Source: Anaerolinea sp. (GTDB lineage: Bacteria; Chloroflexota; Anaerolineae; Anaerolineales; Anaerolineaceae). From it: DNA of 45,712 nt. Positions 36,035-44,792 of the stretch are shown here, in pieces. Numbering within the stretch: the first letter of the stretch is position 1; every line of letters begins with the position of its first letter. Under the pieces are notes generated by a model. The model was given only the letters and a program-made list of their open reading frames with translations. It was not told where the DNA came from and ran no database searches. The translations under genes were made by a program, and so were the position numbers. The stretch covers positions 1-45,712 of the forward strand of contig JARKOV010000062.1 in NCBI GenBank assembly GCA_029975965.1, written 5' to 3'.

Positions 36035-36078
36035 CGATTTACTGCATAACCTCGGAAACGCAGGCCAGGAGGTTATCC

Positions 36079-37965
36079 ATGTTCTGCAGAAACCTGTACC
36101 GGGTTTGCCTGGTTGGGCTTTTCCTGCTGGCATTGACCGGCTGTCGGCCCACCAGCACTCCAACCTCCCCTTCCATCACGGCTGCCCCGCCAGCGACCGC
36201 TACCCGTCCGGCCGCCACGGCGCCGCTGCCAACCGAGACCGCCCTTGCGCCAGGCGCTCACCTGCGACAGGCGATTGCCCACTGCACCGACCGCTCCGCG
36301 CTGATCCGCTCCGTCTACCCGTGGCTGACCGACACCGCGCCCTTTGAAGCCGGTTCCTTTCTCCGCCCCAACCATTGGGCGACTTTGGACGGAGACCAAG
36401 GCCTGGCTCGATACCCCTTCGCGCCCGAAAAAGGGATGGCCCTGCTGGACACGCTGGGCTGGAAACCGTCCGGCGGCGGGCCGTTCCGCAGCAATGCCCA
36501 GGGCGACACGCTGACGCTGACCCTGACCACCACCGAGTCGAAGTTCCGCCAGACCTGGACGGCCGTGTGGGAAGAGCAGATGCAAACCTGCGGCATCCGC
36601 ATCCTTCACAACGCGCAGACCGCCGAGTGGTTGTACGGCCCCGAAAGCGGCCTGTCTCACCGCGATTTTGAACTGGCCGCCTTTGCCTGGTCAGCCCTGG
36701 ATGAGCTGAGCCTGGCGCAAAGTTTTGGTTGCGACCAAATTCCCAGCGCCAACAACGGGTGGCAAGGCCAGAACTTCTCCGGTTGGTGCAACCCGCAGGT
36801 GCAAAATGCCCTCGGCAGGCTGGCGAGCACCTTCGATCCAGCGGAGCAGAAAGCCGCCTACCAGGAGATCCAACGCGAATTCGCACAGGATCTGCCGATG
36901 CTCCCGCTCTTCTACCGGGCGGACGTGTACGCGGTCAACCCGGCCCTGGACCATTTTCTCCCCCCAGAGGATGGCATCCACACCTGGAACGCCGCCCGCT
37001 GGCAAATCTCCGGCAGGGACACCATCGTCCTCGGCTCGGACGGCGAACCGGCTGGTCTGGAAGAATCCGCCTACATCGCCCAGGTCATTCGCACGCTGAT
37101 CAGCGGGAAGGACGCCGTGAGGATCGACGGGGTGTATCAGCCGGTGATGCTCAGCCGGGTGCCCTCGTTCGAAAACGGCCTGGTGGTTGAACACAGGGTG
37201 ATGGCGAAGGAAGGTGACCTGGTGGTGGACGCCGAGGGGAACCCGGTGCGGCTCGCGCCCGGCGTGACCGTGCGAGGCGCGCAGGGAGAGGCGGTCCGCT
37301 ACGGCGGCGGCGAGATTGCCCTGCGGCAACTGGTCGTCGATTTTGTGTTTCGTCCCGGGCTGACCTGGTCGGACGGCGTCCCGGTCACCCAGGCCGATTA
37401 TGAGCTGGGCTACCGGGTGCACTGCGCCGCGGCGAATCCGGACGCCGGTTCCGCCTGCAAAGTCATTTCACAGGTCACCTTTCTGGGCGACAGCCGATAC
37501 CAGGTGCGGTGGATGCCGGGATACGCCGGGGCCTCGGCGGGGGAATACTTCCTGCCGCCCTTCCGCCGCGAACCGGCCCACCAGGTTCTCGCAGACGGCC
37601 GCACGCTGGCCGAGGTGCCCGCGGCCCAATGGCTCTCGCTGCCCGAAGTCCGCCTCACCCCGCTCGGAGCCGGCCCCTACGTGCTGAAGGAATGGGTCTA
37701 CGGCGAAAAGATCGCCCTGGAAGCCAACCCATTCTACTTTGACGGCCCGGTCGCCACGCCGCGCATCCTCGTGCGCTTCCTGGAGCACCCGCGAGCCATC
37801 TCGGCGCTGGTGGACGGCGACGTGGACATCCTCGATGTGGAAACCATCGGCCCGCCGGATGTCGAAGATTTCCATCTCGCCCAGGCGCATGAGGAAGGGA
37901 AGATCACCCTGGTCCTGATCCCCTCCCCCATTTGGGAGCAAATCACCTTCCGGCTCGGCGATTGA
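36079..37965 (+). CDS. Solute-binding lipoprotein, SBP_bac_5 family, circularly permuted order
   Basis: A 628-residue exported protein. A lipobox (LLALTG-C22) and a Thr/Pro/Ala linker (23-58) lead directly into what is normally the C-terminal part of family-5 peptide/nickel-binding proteins: LRQAIAHCTDRSALI (62-76), YPFAPEKGMALLDTLGW, LPMLPLFYRADVYAV. From about D314 (DTIVLG) the normally N-terminal part follows: FRPGLTWSDGVPVTQADYELG (W430), GAGPYVLKEWVYGEKIALEANPFYF (from 530), LVDGDVDILD, then the chain ends at IWEQITFRLGD. That is just where LRQAIA would follow in a standard protein. AGGAGG precedes the ATG. It should bind a peptide-like ligand outside the cell; no permease or ATPase is adjacent. 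Confidence 0.85.
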   Translation: MFCRNLYRVCLVGLFLLALTGCRPTSTPTSPSITAAPPATATRPAATAPLPTETALAPGAHLRQAIAHCTDRSALIRSVYPWLTDTAPFEAGSFLRPNHWATLDGDQGLARYPFAPEKGMALLDTLGWKPSGGGPFRSNAQGDTLTLTLTTTESKFRQTWTAVWEEQMQTCGIRILHNAQTAEWLYGPESGLSHRDFELAAFAWSALDELSLAQSFGCDQIPSANNGWQGQNFSGWCNPQVQNALGRLASTFDPAEQKAAYQEIQREFAQDLPMLPLFYRADVYAVNPALDHFLPPEDGIHTWNAARWQISGRDTIVLGSDGEPAGLEESAYIAQVIRTLISGKDAVRIDGVYQPVMLSRVPSFENGLVVEHRVMAKEGDLVVDAEGNPVRLAPGVTVRGAQGEAVRYGGGEIALRQLVVDFVFRPGLTWSDGVPVTQADYELGYRVHCAAANPDAGSACKVISQVTFLGDSRYQVRWMPGYAGASAGEYFLPPFRREPAHQVLADGRTLAEVPAAQWLSLPEVRLTPLGAGPYVLKEWVYGEKIALEANPFYFDGPVATPRILVRFLEHPRAISALVDGDVDILDVETIGPPDVEDFHLAQAHEEGKITLVLIPSPIWEQITFRLGD

Positions 37966-38808: not shown

Positions 38809-39684
38809 ATGAACGAAACCATCCACACCACCACCGACACCCTGCCCGAGCGCTGGGACCTGGTCATCCAGCCGCAGCGCAGCCTGCTCGACCTGCACCT
38901 GGCCGACCTGTGGCGCTACCGCGACCTGGTGATGCTCTTCGTTCGCCGCGACTTCGTCTCGGTCTACAAGCAGACCGTCCTCGGCCCGCTGTGGTACCTG
39001 ATCCAGCCGCTCTTGACTACCCTCACCTTCACCGTCATCTTCGGCAACATCGCCCGGCTGCCCACCGACGGCCTGCCGCAGTTCCTCTTCTACATGTCCG
39101 GCACGGTCATCTGGACCTACTTCGCCGAGTGCCTGACCAAGACCTCCAACACCTTCGTCAACAACGCCCAGCTCTTCGGCAAGGTCTACTTCCCACGCCT
39201 GGCGGTGCCGGTCTCGATCCTGATCTCCAACCTGATCACCTTCGGCATCCAGTTCGCCTTCTTCCTCGCCTTCCTGGGCTTCTTCGCCCTCGGCGGCGCG
39301 CAGATCCGCCCCAGCCTGTGGATCCTCGCCTCGCCTCTGCTGGTGCTGATGATGGCCGGCCTCGGTCTGGGCTTCGGCATCATCATTTCGTCCTTGACGA
39401 CCAAATATCGCGACCTGCGCTTCCTGGTGCAGTTCGGCGTGCAGCTCTTGATGTACGCCACCCCTGTCATCTACCCGGCCTCGGCGATCCCCGAGCGCTT
39501 CCAGGCGTTGATCAAGCTCAACCCGATGACCCCCATCGTCGAGACCTTTCGCTACGCCTTCCTGGGGGCCGGCTCGGTGCATCCCCTCGACCTGCTCTAC
39601 AGCGCCGGCTTCATGCTGGCGATCGTGTTCATCGGCGCGGTGATGTTTAACCGGGTCGAGGCGACCTTTATGGATACGGTTTAG
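38809..39684 (+). CDS. wzm: Polysaccharide ABC exporter permease (Wzm-like, ABC-2 type)
   Basis: A 291-residue membrane protein of the ABC-2 polysaccharide/polyol-phosphate export group. The cytoplasmic N-terminus leads to the amphipathic LVMLFVRRDFVSVYKQTVLGPLWYLIQPL segment characteristic of Wzm/TagG, and about six helices follow; the end GSVHPLDLLYSAGFMLAIVFIGAVMFNRVEATFMDTV is also typical. It forms the channel that exports an undecaprenyl-linked glycan with the ATPase encoded after the DUF1919 gene. It is G+C-rich (40 of 60 in 39241-39300), like the genome, unlike the next gene. It heads the surface-polysaccharide locus. Confidence 0.9.
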   Translation: MNETIHTTTDTLPERWDLVIQPQRSLLDLHLADLWRYRDLVMLFVRRDFVSVYKQTVLGPLWYLIQPLLTTLTFTVIFGNIARLPTDGLPQFLFYMSGTVIWTYFAECLTKTSNTFVNNAQLFGKVYFPRLAVPVSILISNLITFGIQFAFFLAFLGFFALGGAQIRPSLWILASPLLVLMMAGLGLGFGIIISSLTTKYRDLRFLVQFGVQLLMYATPVIYPASAIPERFQALIKLNPMTPIVETFRYAFLGAGSVHPLDLLYSAGFMLAIVFIGAVMFNRVEATFMDTV

Positions 39685-39752
39685 CTAGATGGTGCAGACA
39701 ATCGCGCTTCACAAAGTTCACCCACTGGAATTGCCATTGTTACGGCACCAAA

Positions 39753-40439
39753 ATGCCTGATATCAAATTAATAGTTCGCCAAAGCAAAAGAAGTTTTCAG
39801 CGAATCATTTTTCGGCTTCGCTTGAAAAATCGCGGTTTCTGTATCGTAGCCAGTAATTGTTGGGGGTCGCGAATCTATAAAGAGTTGAATTTCCCCTTTA
39901 ATACCCCTTTCGTTGGCCTTTTCATCCACTCCCCAGATTATTTACGCCTGCTATCAGATTTAAGAAAGTACCTCGCTCAGCCTCTGGGATTTATCGATCA
40001 ATCAAAATACCCCGAGACAAACGAGAAAAGGGCAATCCACTCATATCCCATAGGATTGTTGGGGGATGAGGTTGAGATTCATTTCTTACATTACCGTTCG
40101 CCCGAAGAAGCCAACCAAAAATGGCAAAAAAGATTGGCGCGGATGGATCTGGAAAACCTGTTCATTGCCTATAATGATCGAGATTGTTTCCAAGAAGCAC
40201 ACCTTAAACGATATGAGAATTTGCCTTTTGATCGCAAAGTCTTCTTCACCACAAATTCAAAGCTGCGCACCCCATCCGCCGTGTACATTTCAGAATGGTC
40301 TGGTCAACCGTATGTTGGCGACCTATACGCGAATTCGCACCTCGTGCACCGCCATTTCGATGTCATCGGTTGGCTGAATAATGAGACCGGCGAAATCAGC
40401 CCATGGATACAATTCTTGAATCGATTGGTCGAGGCATAA
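39753..40439 (+). CDS. DUF1919 protein, putative exopolysaccharide modification
   Basis: A 228-residue soluble protein of the DUF1919 type, with ASNCWGSRIYKELNFPFNTPFVGLFI, DYLRLLSDLRKYL, YPIGLLGDEVEIHFLHYRSPEEANQKWQKR and LFIAYNDRDC blocks. Members occur in capsule and exopolysaccharide loci and are presumed sugar-modifying transferases, but the activity is unproven. The gene is A+T-rich (23 of 60 G+C in 39781-39840) and lies between the G+C-rich wzm and the G+C-rich start of wzt, which are normally adjacent. It looks like an insertion of foreign DNA. Confidence 0.78.
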   Translation: MPDIKLIVRQSKRSFQRIIFRLRLKNRGFCIVASNCWGSRIYKELNFPFNTPFVGLFIHSPDYLRLLSDLRKYLAQPLGFIDQSKYPETNEKRAIHSYPIGLLGDEVEIHFLHYRSPEEANQKWQKRLARMDLENLFIAYNDRDCFQEAHLKRYENLPFDRKVFFTTNSKLRTPSAVYISEWSGQPYVGDLYANSHLVHRHFDVIGWLNNETGEISPWIQFLNRLVEA

Positions 40440-40452
40440 AAGCAGCCTTCCG

Positions 40453-41736
40453 ATGCCCACTGCCATCTCGGTAGAAAATCTCTCGAAAACGTACCGCCTC
40501 GGCCAGATCGGCACCGGCACCCTCACCAACGATCTGAAGGTCTGGTGGGCGCGCGTGCGCGGCAAGCCCAATCCCCTGCTCAAAATCGGGCAGGAGGACC
40601 AAGGCAACCGCGACGGCGAGATTCTCTGGGCGCTCAAGGACGTCAGCTTCCAGGTGGAGCAGGGCGAGGTGCTGGGCATCATCGGGCGCAACGGAGCCGG
40701 CAAGAGCACGCTGCTCAAAATCCTCTCGCGCGTGACTGCTCCGACCGGTGGACAGATTAAGGTGAAGGGACGCATCGCCAGCCTACTGGAGGTGGGCACC
40801 GGCTTCCACCCCGAGCTGACCGGGCGCGAGAACATCTACCTCAACGGCGCAATCCTGGGCATGAGCCGCAAGGAGATCGACCGCAAGTTCGACGAGATCG
40901 TCGACTTCGCTGAGGTGGAGCAGTTCATCGACACGCCGGTCAAGCGCTACTCCAGCGGCATGTACGTGCGCCTGGCCTTTGCTGTGGCAGCCCACCTGGA
41001 AAGTGAGATCCTCCTGGTGGACGAGGTGCTGGCGGTCGGCGACGCCGAGTTCCAGAAGAAGTGCCTCGGCAAGATGGGCGACGTGGCCAGCAAAGAGGGC
41101 CGCACGGTGCTGTTCGTCAGCCACAATATGGAGGCTATCCTCCATTTATGTACGAAGGCTTTTTATATTGACCGGGGAATCATTAAATTCTCAGGCCACA
41201 CAGATGAAACGGTTAAAGCCTACCTCCTAGCCTTCACCCAAAAAAGTACAATTGATCGATTACATGTCGTATACGAGTCAAATACAACGTGCAGACCAGA
41301 TTCCCCCATCGTGAACAGAATTGAAATTCTTGATCTGAACCACCAACCCAAGAACACTATTTACACGTGGGATGATCTGATTATAAGAATACACTATTCA
41401 TCACCAAAGGAATTTTTGAAAGGAACGTTTATAGTCGATGTTTACGATTATAAACAACAACGGCTTGTAGTATTTGACTCTGGCCTAAAGTTGCCGATTT
41501 CCGAAGGAAACCACTTTATTGATCTATCCATTTCAAATTTCGCGCTTTCTGCTGGCGAGTATTTCTTGGGTGTTGGATTGGCTCTTGCCAATGCTCAATT
41601 TTTATGGCGGCAAACAAATGCAGGGTTGCTAAGGATTTTTGGTAAAGATGTTTTTAATATTGGTAGACCACCAGAATACTCGAGGATGATATTCGCTTTG
41701 CAGCACGACTGGAAGAATGACGCTTCGTTCAAATAA
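40453..41736 (+). CDS. wzt: Polysaccharide ABC exporter ATPase with C-terminal glycan-binding domain (Wzt-like)
   Basis: A 427-residue ATPase. The nucleotide-binding domain has Walker A G78-RNGAGKST, the Wzt-type signature YSSGMYVRLAFAVAAHL and Walker B ILLVDEVLAVGD. From about residue 235 a Wzt_C-type beta-sandwich follows, which in relatives recognises the terminal modification of the glycan. Base composition changes abruptly near 41150: 35 of 60 G+C in 40861-40920 against 22 of 60 in 41341-41400, so the conserved ATPase half is native-like and the recognition half is foreign-like. It partners with Wzm. The 3' end overlaps the methyltransferase gene by 20 nt. Confidence 0.92.
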   Translation: MPTAISVENLSKTYRLGQIGTGTLTNDLKVWWARVRGKPNPLLKIGQEDQGNRDGEILWALKDVSFQVEQGEVLGIIGRNGAGKSTLLKILSRVTAPTGGQIKVKGRIASLLEVGTGFHPELTGRENIYLNGAILGMSRKEIDRKFDEIVDFAEVEQFIDTPVKRYSSGMYVRLAFAVAAHLESEILLVDEVLAVGDAEFQKKCLGKMGDVASKEGRTVLFVSHNMEAILHLCTKAFYIDRGIIKFSGHTDETVKAYLLAFTQKSTIDRLHVVYESNTTCRPDSPIVNRIEILDLNHQPKNTIYTWDDLIIRIHYSSPKEFLKGTFIVDVYDYKQQRLVVFDSGLKLPISEGNHFIDLSISNFALSAGEYFLGVGLALANAQFLWRQTNAGLLRIFGKDVFNIGRPPEYSRMIFALQHDWKNDASFK

Positions 41737-42538
41737 TGCTCCGGTGTACCGGAGCATCAATGGCCGCTTAGCTCAGTACAAGGTCTGGACAAATACGTTT
41801 ACAGATTGGGATGAAATTTGGACCGAGAGGAACACAGCGAAAATCTTAAGTAAGAAGATTACGGATCTTGGCGAAATAGATTTTATCAAGAAATTTCTCC
41901 CATCCAACAAAAAAATTCTAGAAGCCGGATGTGGCAATGGATGGGTTGTGCAGGCACTTACACTGAGCGGCTTTGACGTCGAGGGGATCGATTACGCCGA
42001 AAAGACAATCTCACAAATTAAACAAGCCGCACCGGATTTGGATGTTCGTGTTGGAGATATTTACGCCATCGATAGACCTGATGATTACTATGGGGCTTAT
42101 CTATCGTTAGGGGTTCTCGAACATAATATTGATGGTCCCGATAAAGGGCTCCGGGAAGCCTATCGGGTTCTCCAGCCAGGTGGAATAGGTATTGTCACAA
42201 TCCCTTATTTAAACCAGACTCGCAACGTTGTTCTTAAAAACCTGAAAAATGGCATTATCCAACCAGATTCACTTCAGTTTTATCAATATTTCTTTAGCAA
42301 ATCTGAATTCACCTCAATTCTGCAACGAGCTGGATTTGAGGTGCTGGACATAATTCCTATCGGCTTGTACTACGGGCTTAATGCCGACAGCCCAATTTTT
42401 CGTTACCTAGATAAACGCAATTATGTTCACTGGCGGATAAAATCCTGGTTTTATACAATTTGCCAAGCCGCAAATGCAAACCTTCGGTGGAAATGGGGCC
42501 ACATGTTGGCATGCATTTGCAGTAAGAAAAATTGCTGA
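41717..42538 (+). CDS. Class I SAM-dependent methyltransferase
   Basis: A 273-residue methyltransferase. The SAM-binding motif I is ILEAGCGNGWVVQAL, followed by the acidic residue in VEGIDYAEKTI, GDIYAI and the post-motif VLQPGGIGIVTIPYL. The N-terminal ~60 residues are a variable substrate-recognition part. It is A+T-rich, like the 3' half of wzt with which it overlaps, so both were probably acquired together. Terminal methylation is a known chain-length and export signal read by the Wzt C-terminal domain, giving a natural pairing; the exact sugar position is unknown. Confidence 0.88.
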   Translation: MTLRSNNAPVYRSINGRLAQYKVWTNTFTDWDEIWTERNTAKILSKKITDLGEIDFIKKFLPSNKKILEAGCGNGWVVQALTLSGFDVEGIDYAEKTISQIKQAAPDLDVRVGDIYAIDRPDDYYGAYLSLGVLEHNIDGPDKGLREAYRVLQPGGIGIVTIPYLNQTRNVVLKNLKNGIIQPDSLQFYQYFFSKSEFTSILQRAGFEVLDIIPIGLYYGLNADSPIFRYLDKRNYVHWRIKSWFYTICQAANANLRWKWGHMLACICSKKNC

Positions 42539-42563
42539 CCATCTGCATTCCTAGGATGAATCT

Positions 42564-43772
42564 GTGCATATCGCCTACTTGACCCCGGAATACCCCGATT
42601 CACGCAGGCCGGATGGCGGCCTCGGAAATTACATTCGCAAAGTCAGCCTGGAGTTGATCCGCCGCGGCCATGAAGCGACGGCCTTCGTGCTTTCGTATGA
42701 AAACAAATCGTGGAATGACCAGGACATCCGTGTTTTGCAACTGAACAGTTTTCGTTTTCACTGGCGCTTGCGCAGAAATCGATCCCTGTCGCGTTGGCTG
42801 GACCTGTGTGAGCGCTGGATCAACGGCAAACGGCTGAAATTGTTTGTGTTGCAGTCACATCGCAGGAAGAAGATCGATCTCGTTCAAACCTCCAATTACC
42901 TCGCCCCCGGCATCGAGCTCTGCCGGAACGGGCAATTTCCGTTGGTGTGCCGCTGTTCCAGCTACATGCCGCCCTTGCGGGCAGCCAATGGTCAACAGCG
43001 AACCATTAAGAGCACTATCGAGGACTGGCGGGAAATCTCCACCATGCTGAAAGCTGATGCGGTTTTCGCTCCCAGTGCATATGTCGCCAACCTGTACGAT
43101 CGCTTTGAAGCGATCAAACCCAGGGTGATCCGCACCCCCATCGAAAACACGCCCTCCGGTTCTGACGAGTCGGTTTACCAGGCATGGCTGAACGGAAAAA
43201 AATACCTGCTTCACTTCGGCACCTTGATGGGGGTTAAAGGCACAGATTTGTTGATTCAAATCGCCCCAAGATTGCTCGATCAATTCCCCGACTTGCACCT
43301 TGCGTTTGTCGGAGCCGATGGGCCGCTCCCAAACGGCGAGAACACTTCAGTTTTTCTGAATAAGGAATTGGGCGCATACAAAGACAGGGTCTTGTTGCAC
43401 CCTCCTTTGCAGAAGCCTCAGTTAACTCCCGTGATCAGGCATGCGTATGGCGTAGTGATGCCATCCAGGATCGACAATTATCCCAATGCGTGCCTTGAAG
43501 CCCTGGCGCTTGGCGTCCCGGTGATTGGGACTTACGAATCGAGCCTGGAGGAGATCATTACGGATCGAAAAACCGGGTTTCTGGCCAGGAACAATAACCC
43601 AGAAAGCCTGCACGAGGAAACCATGCGTTTGTTAACGCTGCCTGAGGATGAATACCGGCAAATGAAAGAAAACATAAGGCAATTTATCGACACAGAATTG
43701 GCAACGGACCGTGTCGGGCAGTTGATCCAGTTCTATGAAGATACGATCGCCAATTTTCGACCGTATGCGTAA
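42564..43772 (+). CDS. Glycosyltransferase family 4 (GT-B fold)
   Basis: A 402-residue GT-B glycosyltransferase. The N-terminal acceptor half starts HIAYLTPEYPDSRRPDGGLGNYIRKVSLELIRRGHEATAF. The C-terminal donor half carries LHFGTLMGVKGTDLLIQIAP, a G-x-x-MPSRIDNYPNACLEALALGVPVIGT segment with the E-x7-E donor motif, and TGFLARNNNPESL. It starts at GTG with AGGAT about seven bases ahead. It transfers an activated sugar to a growing lipid-linked glycan at the cytoplasmic membrane. Sugar specificity is not readable. It is 25 nt after the methyltransferase gene. Confidence 0.92.
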   Translation: MHIAYLTPEYPDSRRPDGGLGNYIRKVSLELIRRGHEATAFVLSYENKSWNDQDIRVLQLNSFRFHWRLRRNRSLSRWLDLCERWINGKRLKLFVLQSHRRKKIDLVQTSNYLAPGIELCRNGQFPLVCRCSSYMPPLRAANGQQRTIKSTIEDWREISTMLKADAVFAPSAYVANLYDRFEAIKPRVIRTPIENTPSGSDESVYQAWLNGKKYLLHFGTLMGVKGTDLLIQIAPRLLDQFPDLHLAFVGADGPLPNGENTSVFLNKELGAYKDRVLLHPPLQKPQLTPVIRHAYGVVMPSRIDNYPNACLEALALGVPVIGTYESSLEEIITDRKTGFLARNNNPESLHEETMRLLTLPEDEYRQMKENIRQFIDTELATDRVGQLIQFYEDTIANFRPYA

Positions 43773-43823
43773 TTTTGAAATTTTCACAATCTGGAACAAC
43801 TCGATCTCTCTCGAGCCTTACCC

Positions 43824-44792
43824 GTGACGCTCGTTCGCATCCTACGAAATTACCCCTACCCAGACCTGCTGCGCCAGACACCGCAAGGAAAGGGTCTCTG
43901 GGATGGCGTCCAATACCTGGTTGACCAAAGCGGTCCATGCGATTACGCAGTCATTCTGAATGGGGTCAACGAGAAAACGGTCGTGCATTGCGCACCAGAG
44001 CATGTATGGGCTTTGATGCAAGAGCCACCAACCGAATATAAAAGGAAATTGCATCGAGGGAATCCGGCATTTCACCAGATCTTCACCCAAGATGCCGGGT
44101 TGCATGGCGAGCGTTATGTCCTGAGCCAACCGGCATTACCCTGGCATATCGATAAAACATTTGATGAACTGGTCAACTGCCCGGCACCCGAAAAAACGGG
44201 TAACCTATCTTGGGTTACCAGTAATCTGGCAAATCTGAAAGGTCACCGGCGCCGGATGCGCTTCTTGACACACCTCCAGGAAGAAGTCGCGTTTGATCTC
44301 TATGGGCGTGGTTTTAATTTTCTCAAGAACAAATGGGATGGCATTGCGCCTTACAGGTACTCACTGGCGGTAGAAAACTTTCGCAATGAATATTACTGGT
44401 CGGAAAAAATCGCCGATTGTTTTTTGGCCTGGACAATGCCGATCTATTATGGTTGCACCAAGATCACCGACTATTTCCCGGCCGAGGCGATCATCCTGCT
44501 GGATGAGATTGACACCCCTGAAGCGCTCAGAATCGTCAAGGATGCCAGCCGGAGCGACCGCTGGAAAAAGAGCCTGGATGCAATTGCCTATGCACGCGAG
44601 TTAGTGTTAATGAAATACCAGCTATTCCCTTTCATTTCGGGGAAAATCCATGAATCGATACGCGTAGGCGGCGCTCAACCCAGAGAAATCGATGACGTGT
44701 GGATCCCTCCTCTGCCTGCGCAGCAAATTCCCCTGCGTTTTCGCGTCAACCGCTATATAAAACATTTACAGAAAATATTGTTACGCTCTTGA
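43824..44792 (+). CDS. Glycosyltransferase family 10 (fucosyltransferase-like)
   Basis: A 322-residue protein whose C-terminal half matches the GT10 alpha-1,3-fucosyltransferase signature: YRYSLAVENFRNEYYWSEKIADCFLAWTMPIYYGC, with the donor-binding Glu and Lys, then FPAEAIILLDEID. The N-terminal half (MLQEPP-like ALMQEPPTEYKRKL, HQIFTQD) forms the acceptor domain of the GT-B fold. It would add fucose or a related deoxysugar from a GDP-sugar to the surface glycan. The start is uncertain: GTG 43824 is preferred, with no strong ribosome site. Bacterial GT10 enzymes are less common than GT4 and often make host-like decorations. Confidence 0.85.
   Translation: MTLVRILRNYPYPDLLRQTPQGKGLWDGVQYLVDQSGPCDYAVILNGVNEKTVVHCAPEHVWALMQEPPTEYKRKLHRGNPAFHQIFTQDAGLHGERYVLSQPALPWHIDKTFDELVNCPAPEKTGNLSWVTSNLANLKGHRRRMRFLTHLQEEVAFDLYGRGFNFLKNKWDGIAPYRYSLAVENFRNEYYWSEKIADCFLAWTMPIYYGCTKITDYFPAEAIILLDEIDTPEALRIVKDASRSDRWKKSLDAIAYARELVLMKYQLFPFISGKIHESIRVGGAQPREIDDVWIPPLPAQQIPLRFRVNRYIKHLQKILLRS

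Follow-up and report, generated by a model that had tools for sequence, protein, structure and literature searches.

An open reading frame on the forward strand of an Anaerolinea sp. contig (JARKOV010000062.1, assembly GCA_029975965.1; Chloroflexota) encodes a substrate-binding protein of the SBP_bac_5 family (PF00496) in which the two halves of the receptor stand in swapped order, the normal second half (C-half) preceding the normal first half (N-half). The gene lies at positions 36079 to 37965 of the 45,712-nucleotide stretch analyzed here, which we call the window. We consider it highly probable that its product is a naturally circularly permuted lipoprotein receptor of the Dpp/Opp type, belonging to a lineage that arose once and is mostly linked to OppBCDF genes, with the window copy being an unlinked member.

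Swapped halves of the window protein

The Pfam scan matched PF00496 to the window protein in two stretches, at 93.4 bits against a curated cut-off of 32.4, and the best stretch places residues 418 to 601 on profile positions 17 to 188. The best NCBIfam family match likewise falls in two stretches, and the score for Opp4A (NF045467), 102.1 bits, lies below the equivalog cut-off of 650 bits. When the protein is aligned to the Thermus thermophilus receptor 2d5w, chain residues 50 to 307 correspond to query residues 384 to 623 and chain residues 327 to 580 to query residues 62 to 308; AppA (1xoc) shows the same reversed order. An earlier annotation made from the nucleotide letters alone (the sequence-only reading) had proposed that the normal second half comes first, and on this point the Pfam order, the 2d5w and 1xoc alignments, and the structure comparisons given below agree. 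A single collinear match to PF00496, which that reading had named as a finding that would refute it, was found over the window protein neither by Pfam nor in the two alignments, and the relatives likewise have their halves swapped. In permuted genes from four other genomes, the Pfam match breaks at profile positions 205-209, the 5' part running from 205-209 to 329-358 and the 3' part from 15-26 to 207-209, and the first part of the relative L070 covers positions 208-358. Judged by these matches, the window protein is a member of PF00496 by homology and not by architecture; databases name it an ordinary substrate-binding protein despite its reversed order. Its features, all on the forward strand, are as follows.

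36067..36072, forward: AGGAGG ribosome-binding site, read in the sequence, with the ATG 6 bases downstream
36079..37965, forward: whole permuted receptor gene, 628 amino acids; unlinked copy, with no OppB/OppC homologue found in the 45.7-kb window
36079..36144, forward: predicted lipoprotein signal peptide, residues 1-22, with lipobox LTGC and Cys22 (translation; many relatives have lipoboxes too)
36145..36249, forward: low-complexity Pro/Thr/Ala linker, residues 23-57 (translation; per-residue model confidence, pLDDT, <50 over most of residues 23-54)
36250..37008, forward: normal second half of the SBP_bac_5 receptor, residues 58-310, first in the chain (profile and structure matches)
36283..36591, forward: Cys69 to Cys171 pair, common to normal-order type A paralogues (see below); putative disulfide
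37003..37035, forward: junction of the old C and N termini, approximately residues 309-319 (QISGRDTIVLG), from sequence and model alignments
37015..37962, forward: normal first half of the SBP_bac_5 receptor, residues 313-628, last in the chain (profile and structure matches)
37162..37323, forward: long insert within the first half, residues 362-415, similar in length in normal-order type A paralogues

Translation from the ATG at 36079 to the stop codon ending at 37965 meets no internal stops, and the guanine-plus-cytosine fractions at codon positions 1, 2, and 3 are 0.67, 0.49, and 0.81. The protein matches 97 of the 103 alignment columns that are conserved at ≥90% in the other 116 rows and ranks 31st from the bottom of all 117 rows in this agreement, being somewhat, and not unusually, divergent. 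The intact frame, the ribosome-binding site, and the retained columns together sustain the earlier view that the gene is not a pseudogene. The signal peptide and the lipobox cysteine (LTGC, Cys22) mark the product as a bacterial lipoprotein, with lipidation predicted from the sequence. A lipobox pattern was found in 85 of 119 permuted proteins, which is not a firm count, as several of the proteins without a match have truncated starts or carry their lipobox beyond the range scanned. Between the old C terminus and the old N terminus there are at most a few residues, and the position of the junction is good to a few residues, since the N-half piece used for structure comparison was cut at residue 313 by hand.

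A full-length model, which bears on the question raised by the sequence-only reading of whether the halves form one fold, is a single confident structure (mean pLDDT, 91.6; predicted template modeling score [pTM], 0.87). Its residues 54-311 align to residues 272-507 of DppA (1dpe) and its residues 55-312 to residues 275-520 of AppA (1xoc). In the piece comprising residues 313-628, piece residues 2-313 align to DppA (1dpp) 1-293 and piece residues 1-316 to AppA (1xoc) 21-292. Each half thus aligns with its counterpart in solved receptors of the cluster C, or Dpp/Opp, fold, and the model suggests that the two halves close into the usual two-lobed receptor within one chain. Residues 613-628 form a strand with pLDDT values of 91-96 in the full chain and no strand, with values of 56-62, in the N-half modeled alone. 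A last strand that is ordered only when the other half is present is expected if the new C terminus packs on that half; because the two models were built from different alignments, the contrast is only suggestive. A domain-swapped dimer, in which halves would pair between chains rather than within one, is also compatible with a single-chain model, and yet the pTM of the monomer and the behavior of the last strand make such swapping very improbable.

A permuted lineage and its probable origin in Chloroflexota

The protein search returned 335 proteins including the query, and in all 120 listed proteins whose order was read, the query included, the halves are swapped. The genome scan, which covered all phyla with two peptide patterns, found 149 relatives, and each of the best 80, kept as loci, holds a permuted gene, which in L079 is interrupted by an in-frame stop. 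All 80 loci are from Chloroflexota (Chloroflexia, 27; Anaerolineae, 23; Caldilineae, 8; Thermoflexia, 3; Candidatus Thermofontia, 2; class unassigned, 17), as are all organism names among the listed proteins and the kept loci; permuted receptors in other phyla may exist. Carriers include the isolates Chloroflexus islandicus isl-2 and Bellilinea caldifistulae GOMI-1. A scan of 400 genomes from the phylum gave matches in 44, and in at least 41 of them one or more genes match the permuted profile collinearly in a single stretch, a lower bound because the best three candidates per genome were scored. One of these 41 (G353) has an in-frame TGA; in two other matching genomes (G235 and G267) the gene is split over two frames, and another (G076) has a normal-order relative only. 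Broken permuted genes were read at L102:803-2846 and G267:C70:4550-6521 (both in two frames) and at L079:6349-8289 (the in-frame stop), and these breaks are possibly decay or sequencing errors.

That the window gene might belong to a permuted lineage of receptors had been anticipated, and the uniform order among listed proteins and kept loci establishes such a lineage. The same uniformity bears on whether the swapped order is an artefact, i.e., a misassembly, a frameshift, or a pseudogene fragment of a tandem pair. Misjoins are conceivable, as normal-order paralogues lie near the permuted gene in 12 of the 80 loci and a few relatives are broken; against this stand the recurrence of the order across many assemblies, some of them of isolates, and the conserved columns kept by the window protein, and we regard pseudogene and assembly error as ruled out for practical purposes.

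Trees were built from each half (67 rows, 18 of them permuted) and from the concatenated halves (50 rows, 15 permuted). The 18 permuted rows form one clade with 100/100 support in both the N-half and the C-half tree; in the latter, no single branch separates off the outgroup and long branches come together, and we used it only for the monophyly of this clade. The concatenated tree again supports the permuted clade at 100/100, with a normal-order group that we call type A (P0121-like) and its variants at 100/99, followed by a second close normal-order group, type B (L083-L094), and then by generic receptors. Since the permuted clade is monophyletic in all three trees and lies among normal-order receptors, the hypothesis best supported by these sequences is that the permuted order was derived a single time, inside a normal-order receptor clade of Chloroflexota; it is read as derived because the tree is rooted on generic normal-order receptors.

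The tie to type A is based on one character in each half. In the C-half, Cys69 and Cys171 are each present in 18/18 permuted, 23/23 type A, 0/12 type B, and 0/14 generic rows, and the N-half insert measures 55-66 residues in permuted rows (14 in one row), 45-60 in type A, 35 in type B, and 12-39 in generic receptors. Cys218 and Cys237, common to permuted and type B rows, are each found in 12/12 type B, 1/23 type A, and 3/14 generic rows. The grouping of the permuted rows with A and A2 reached 94/91 and is not starred, and approximately unbiased (AU) tests gave p values of 0.18-0.40 for the four placements tested, rejecting neither A nor B as the sister. Given the pull of Cys218 and Cys237 toward B and the AU tests, the donor may have been of either type.

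These data also bear on whether the protein is a chimera, with its second half from a B-type and its first half from an A-type receptor in tandem. Scores against hidden Markov models of the halves suggested it, type A receptors in tandem loci reaching 137-181 bits for the N-half and 93-156 for the C-half and type B receptors reaching 78-116 and 165-200 bits, respectively, and the distribution of Cys218 and Cys237 points the same way. However, Cys69 and Cys171 lie in the C-half and the insert of the N-half is A-like, so both halves carry a character that points to A; the trees of the two halves give them no firmly different sisters, and neither they nor the AU tests lend support, leaving a chimeric origin improbable.

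The type A paralogue mentioned above lies on the same strand as the permuted gene in all 12 loci. It is upstream in nine, the two frames lying 76 to 2021 bases apart (the gap of 544 in L079 being measured to the second piece of the stop-broken frame), and downstream in three, where the permease and ATPase genes stand in between and the distance is 4361 to 4871 bases. The sequence-only reading had suggested that the permutation came about when two tandem genes lost their outer halves. Tandem duplication followed by such loss seems to us the most likely origin, as it fits the nearby paralogues and the position of the permuted clade among normal-order receptors; an intermediate was not seen in the loci read, and the loss is a presumed step.

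Partner permease, unlinked copies, and variants

An OppB gene follows the permuted gene within 500 bases in 62 of the 71 loci having ≥1.4 kb of downstream sequence. Of these loci, 51 have ≥4.7 kb downstream, and 48 of the 51 also carry OppC and at least two ATPases; in the examples examined, the neighbors proved to be BPD_transp_1, OppC_N, ABC_tran, and oligo_HPY proteins. As OppB, OppC, and two ATPases follow most permuted genes with room, gene order makes it most likely that the permuted protein serves a peptide-type importer as its receptor. Homologous transport genes follow normal-order receptors in L137, L158, and L159, whose genomes gave no permuted match in the 400-genome scan. In L137 (G076:C67:31000-46000), a type A normal-order receptor heads and a type B receptor ends the cluster around OppBCDF; in other genomes it is the permuted receptor that stands at the head.

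The OppB proteins beside permuted receptors are 395-517 amino acids long, mostly about 400 (62 genes). Parsing succeeded for 53 of 65, and in these the region between transmembrane segments 1 and 2 (TM1-TM2) spans 96-107 residues and has exactly two cysteines. Eleven of the 12 unparsed proteins show the cysteine pair by eye, L072 with two further cysteines; the other, in L011, has a larger insert with one cysteine in view. This OppB (L011:2245-3798) is 517 amino acids long from the first start codon of its frame, with a still larger TM1-TM2 insert. Three sister OppBs beside normal-order receptors have TM1-TM2 regions of 53-63 residues and no cysteines. In other OppBs the region measures 39-57 residues where parsed (16 of 35), with two cysteines in 3 of the 16, in loops of 40-52 residues. 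We infer that the two-cysteine segment helps to dock the permuted receptor.

A linked OppB is lacking in the remaining 9 of the 71 loci with room. Eight of these nine genomes hold a full-length long-type OppB elsewhere, and eight have a second permuted copy or piece, which in seven stands directly before a long-type OppB. The window protein is a paralogue of this unlinked kind, which most likely docks on a permease encoded elsewhere in its genome. Upstream of its gene lie a histidine kinase (Pfam) and, recognized by eye, a response regulator; the downstream side has an ABC-2 membrane protein at 38809-39684 and a GT10-family glycosyltransferase at 43824-44792 (both Pfam), with an ATP-binding cassette (ABC) ATPase, recognized by eye, between them at 40453-41736. 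The stretch 38809-44792 is apparently a polysaccharide export region. Two Chloroflexus permuted receptors with no linked OppB (L061:5603-8188 and L070:7725-10193) carry about 150 extra C-terminal residues, and the scan of the L070 extension gave no clear Pfam domain.

A screen of 206 permuted sequences showed 14 in which the lipobox is replaced by an inside tail, with an RWD motif, and by an apparent membrane helix (by eye) (P0013, P0017, P0018, P0023, P0026-P0031, P0033, P0034, P0044, and P0049). All 14 are among 119 protein-database records and share 43-49% identity with the window protein. A search for genomes carrying this variant, with the best two candidates taken from each of 400, gave matches in 34, none of them starting before query residue 40. 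In P0044, a zf-HC2 zinc finger and a LysM domain precede the permuted receptor; zf-HC2 is typical of anti-sigma factors. These variants look like membrane sensors. A shortened relative on the reverse strand, L101:928-2175, has the normal second half at its frame start and a WEHIDFNL-like strand, followed by sequence unmatched by the family, and is without the normal first half.

The unlinked copy in the window might accordingly be read as a sensor that signals, for example, through the nearby kinase or an anti-sigma partner rather than as a transport receptor, a possibility favored by the lack of OppB/OppC in the window, the two-component genes upstream, and the inside-tail relatives, P0044 included. 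However, the lipobox of the window protein is plain and an inside tail is absent, the long-type permease occurs in eight of the nine genomes that have unlinked copies, and no sigma factor was found among 10 neighbor proteins of unlinked copies from five loci (6 of the 10 without a Pfam match at E ≤1e-5). We therefore consider a sensor role for the window copy unlikely and a transport receptor acting in trans the better account.

Proposed mechanism, known receptors, and meaning

In our reading, the chain joins its old N and C termini near residue 312 and opens at the crossover before the RQAI helix, with the two halves probably still folding into the usual two-lobed receptor. The Cys22 lipid anchor and the 35-residue linker would then tether the receptor at this crossover, where the tether formerly sat at the old N terminus of lobe I. 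The permutation would have arisen once in the normal-order clade of Chloroflexota, through tandem duplication and loss of the outer halves. Members linked to OppB, OppC, OppD, and OppF would bind a peptide-like solute and pass it to that permease, and the window paralogue would dock in trans on one encoded elsewhere.

Several points weigh against this explanation. Closure of the cleft, for which swapping between chains is the alternative, is deduced from the confidence of the model together with two sequential alignments; a few structure alignments stray into the other half (2d5w, 55-600; 4oeu, 55-618). A few relatives are broken (L079 by its in-frame stop; G235 and G267 by split frames), and the sister group is weakly resolved, as the unstarred 94/91 grouping and the AU tests indicate. 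The ninth of the genomes with unlinked copies (G408) yielded just a permease fragment that does not include the diagnostic region, and given the proportion of unlinked copies, the transport role may not extend to every member.

Both halves of the permuted receptors align in sequence and fold to DppA, OppA, AppA, NikA, and 2d5w (SBP_bac_5, cluster C), and most permuted relatives, like cluster C receptors, adjoin binding-protein-dependent permease and ABC ATPase genes. They differ from those receptors in their swapped halves, in the new termini at the crossover before RQAI, in the longer N-half insert, and in the lineage cysteines. The type A receptors of Chloroflexota (P0121-P0243; L012:5325-7826) have the Cys69/Cys171 pair and the long insert in common with them, with a normal order of halves, and are the nearest normal-order group in the concatenated tree.

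A natural permutation has been described in another receptor family. According to PMC4990184, TpMglB-2 (Tp0684) of Treponema pallidum is a circularly permuted cluster B receptor, for which "Type Ic / Cluster Bc" was proposed. It resembles the present family in being a lipid-anchored ABC receptor found in a lineage, with its gene adjoining permease genes, and differs in being a sugar receptor of cluster B in which three N-lobe strands moved to the C terminus, whereas here nearly half of the chain is swapped, in cluster C. Set beside cluster Bc as described there, the window protein falls outside it: a Pfam scan to E = 10 gave PF00496 only, and the relatives break at profile positions 205-209. 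We found no report of a permuted SBP_bac_5 (PF00496) receptor in the open-licence PMC literature, and TpMglB-2 is the only other natural permutation of an ABC receptor that these searches brought up.

In Escherichia coli DppB, the periplasmic TM1-TM2 region carries a scoop motif that enters the receptor cleft, as stated in PMC12136057. The OppB partners of permuted receptors have a longer, two-cysteine version of this same region. We tentatively put forward, as a possibility about which we are doubtful, that the permutation and this segment are one co-evolved docking change, in which the tether moved to the interlobe crossover and the permease gained a contact. A single permease would then have come to work with two receptors whose halves stand in opposite order and whose genes share one cluster, plus unlinked ones, some of which would now be membrane sensors with an anti-sigma-like inside tail.

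The reversed order of the halves goes unmarked under the ordinary database name of the protein. In the 12 of 80 loci where permuted and normal forms share a gene cluster and its permease genes, Chloroflexota offer a natural experiment, which asks whether chain order and the position of the lipid tether matter for docking and transport.
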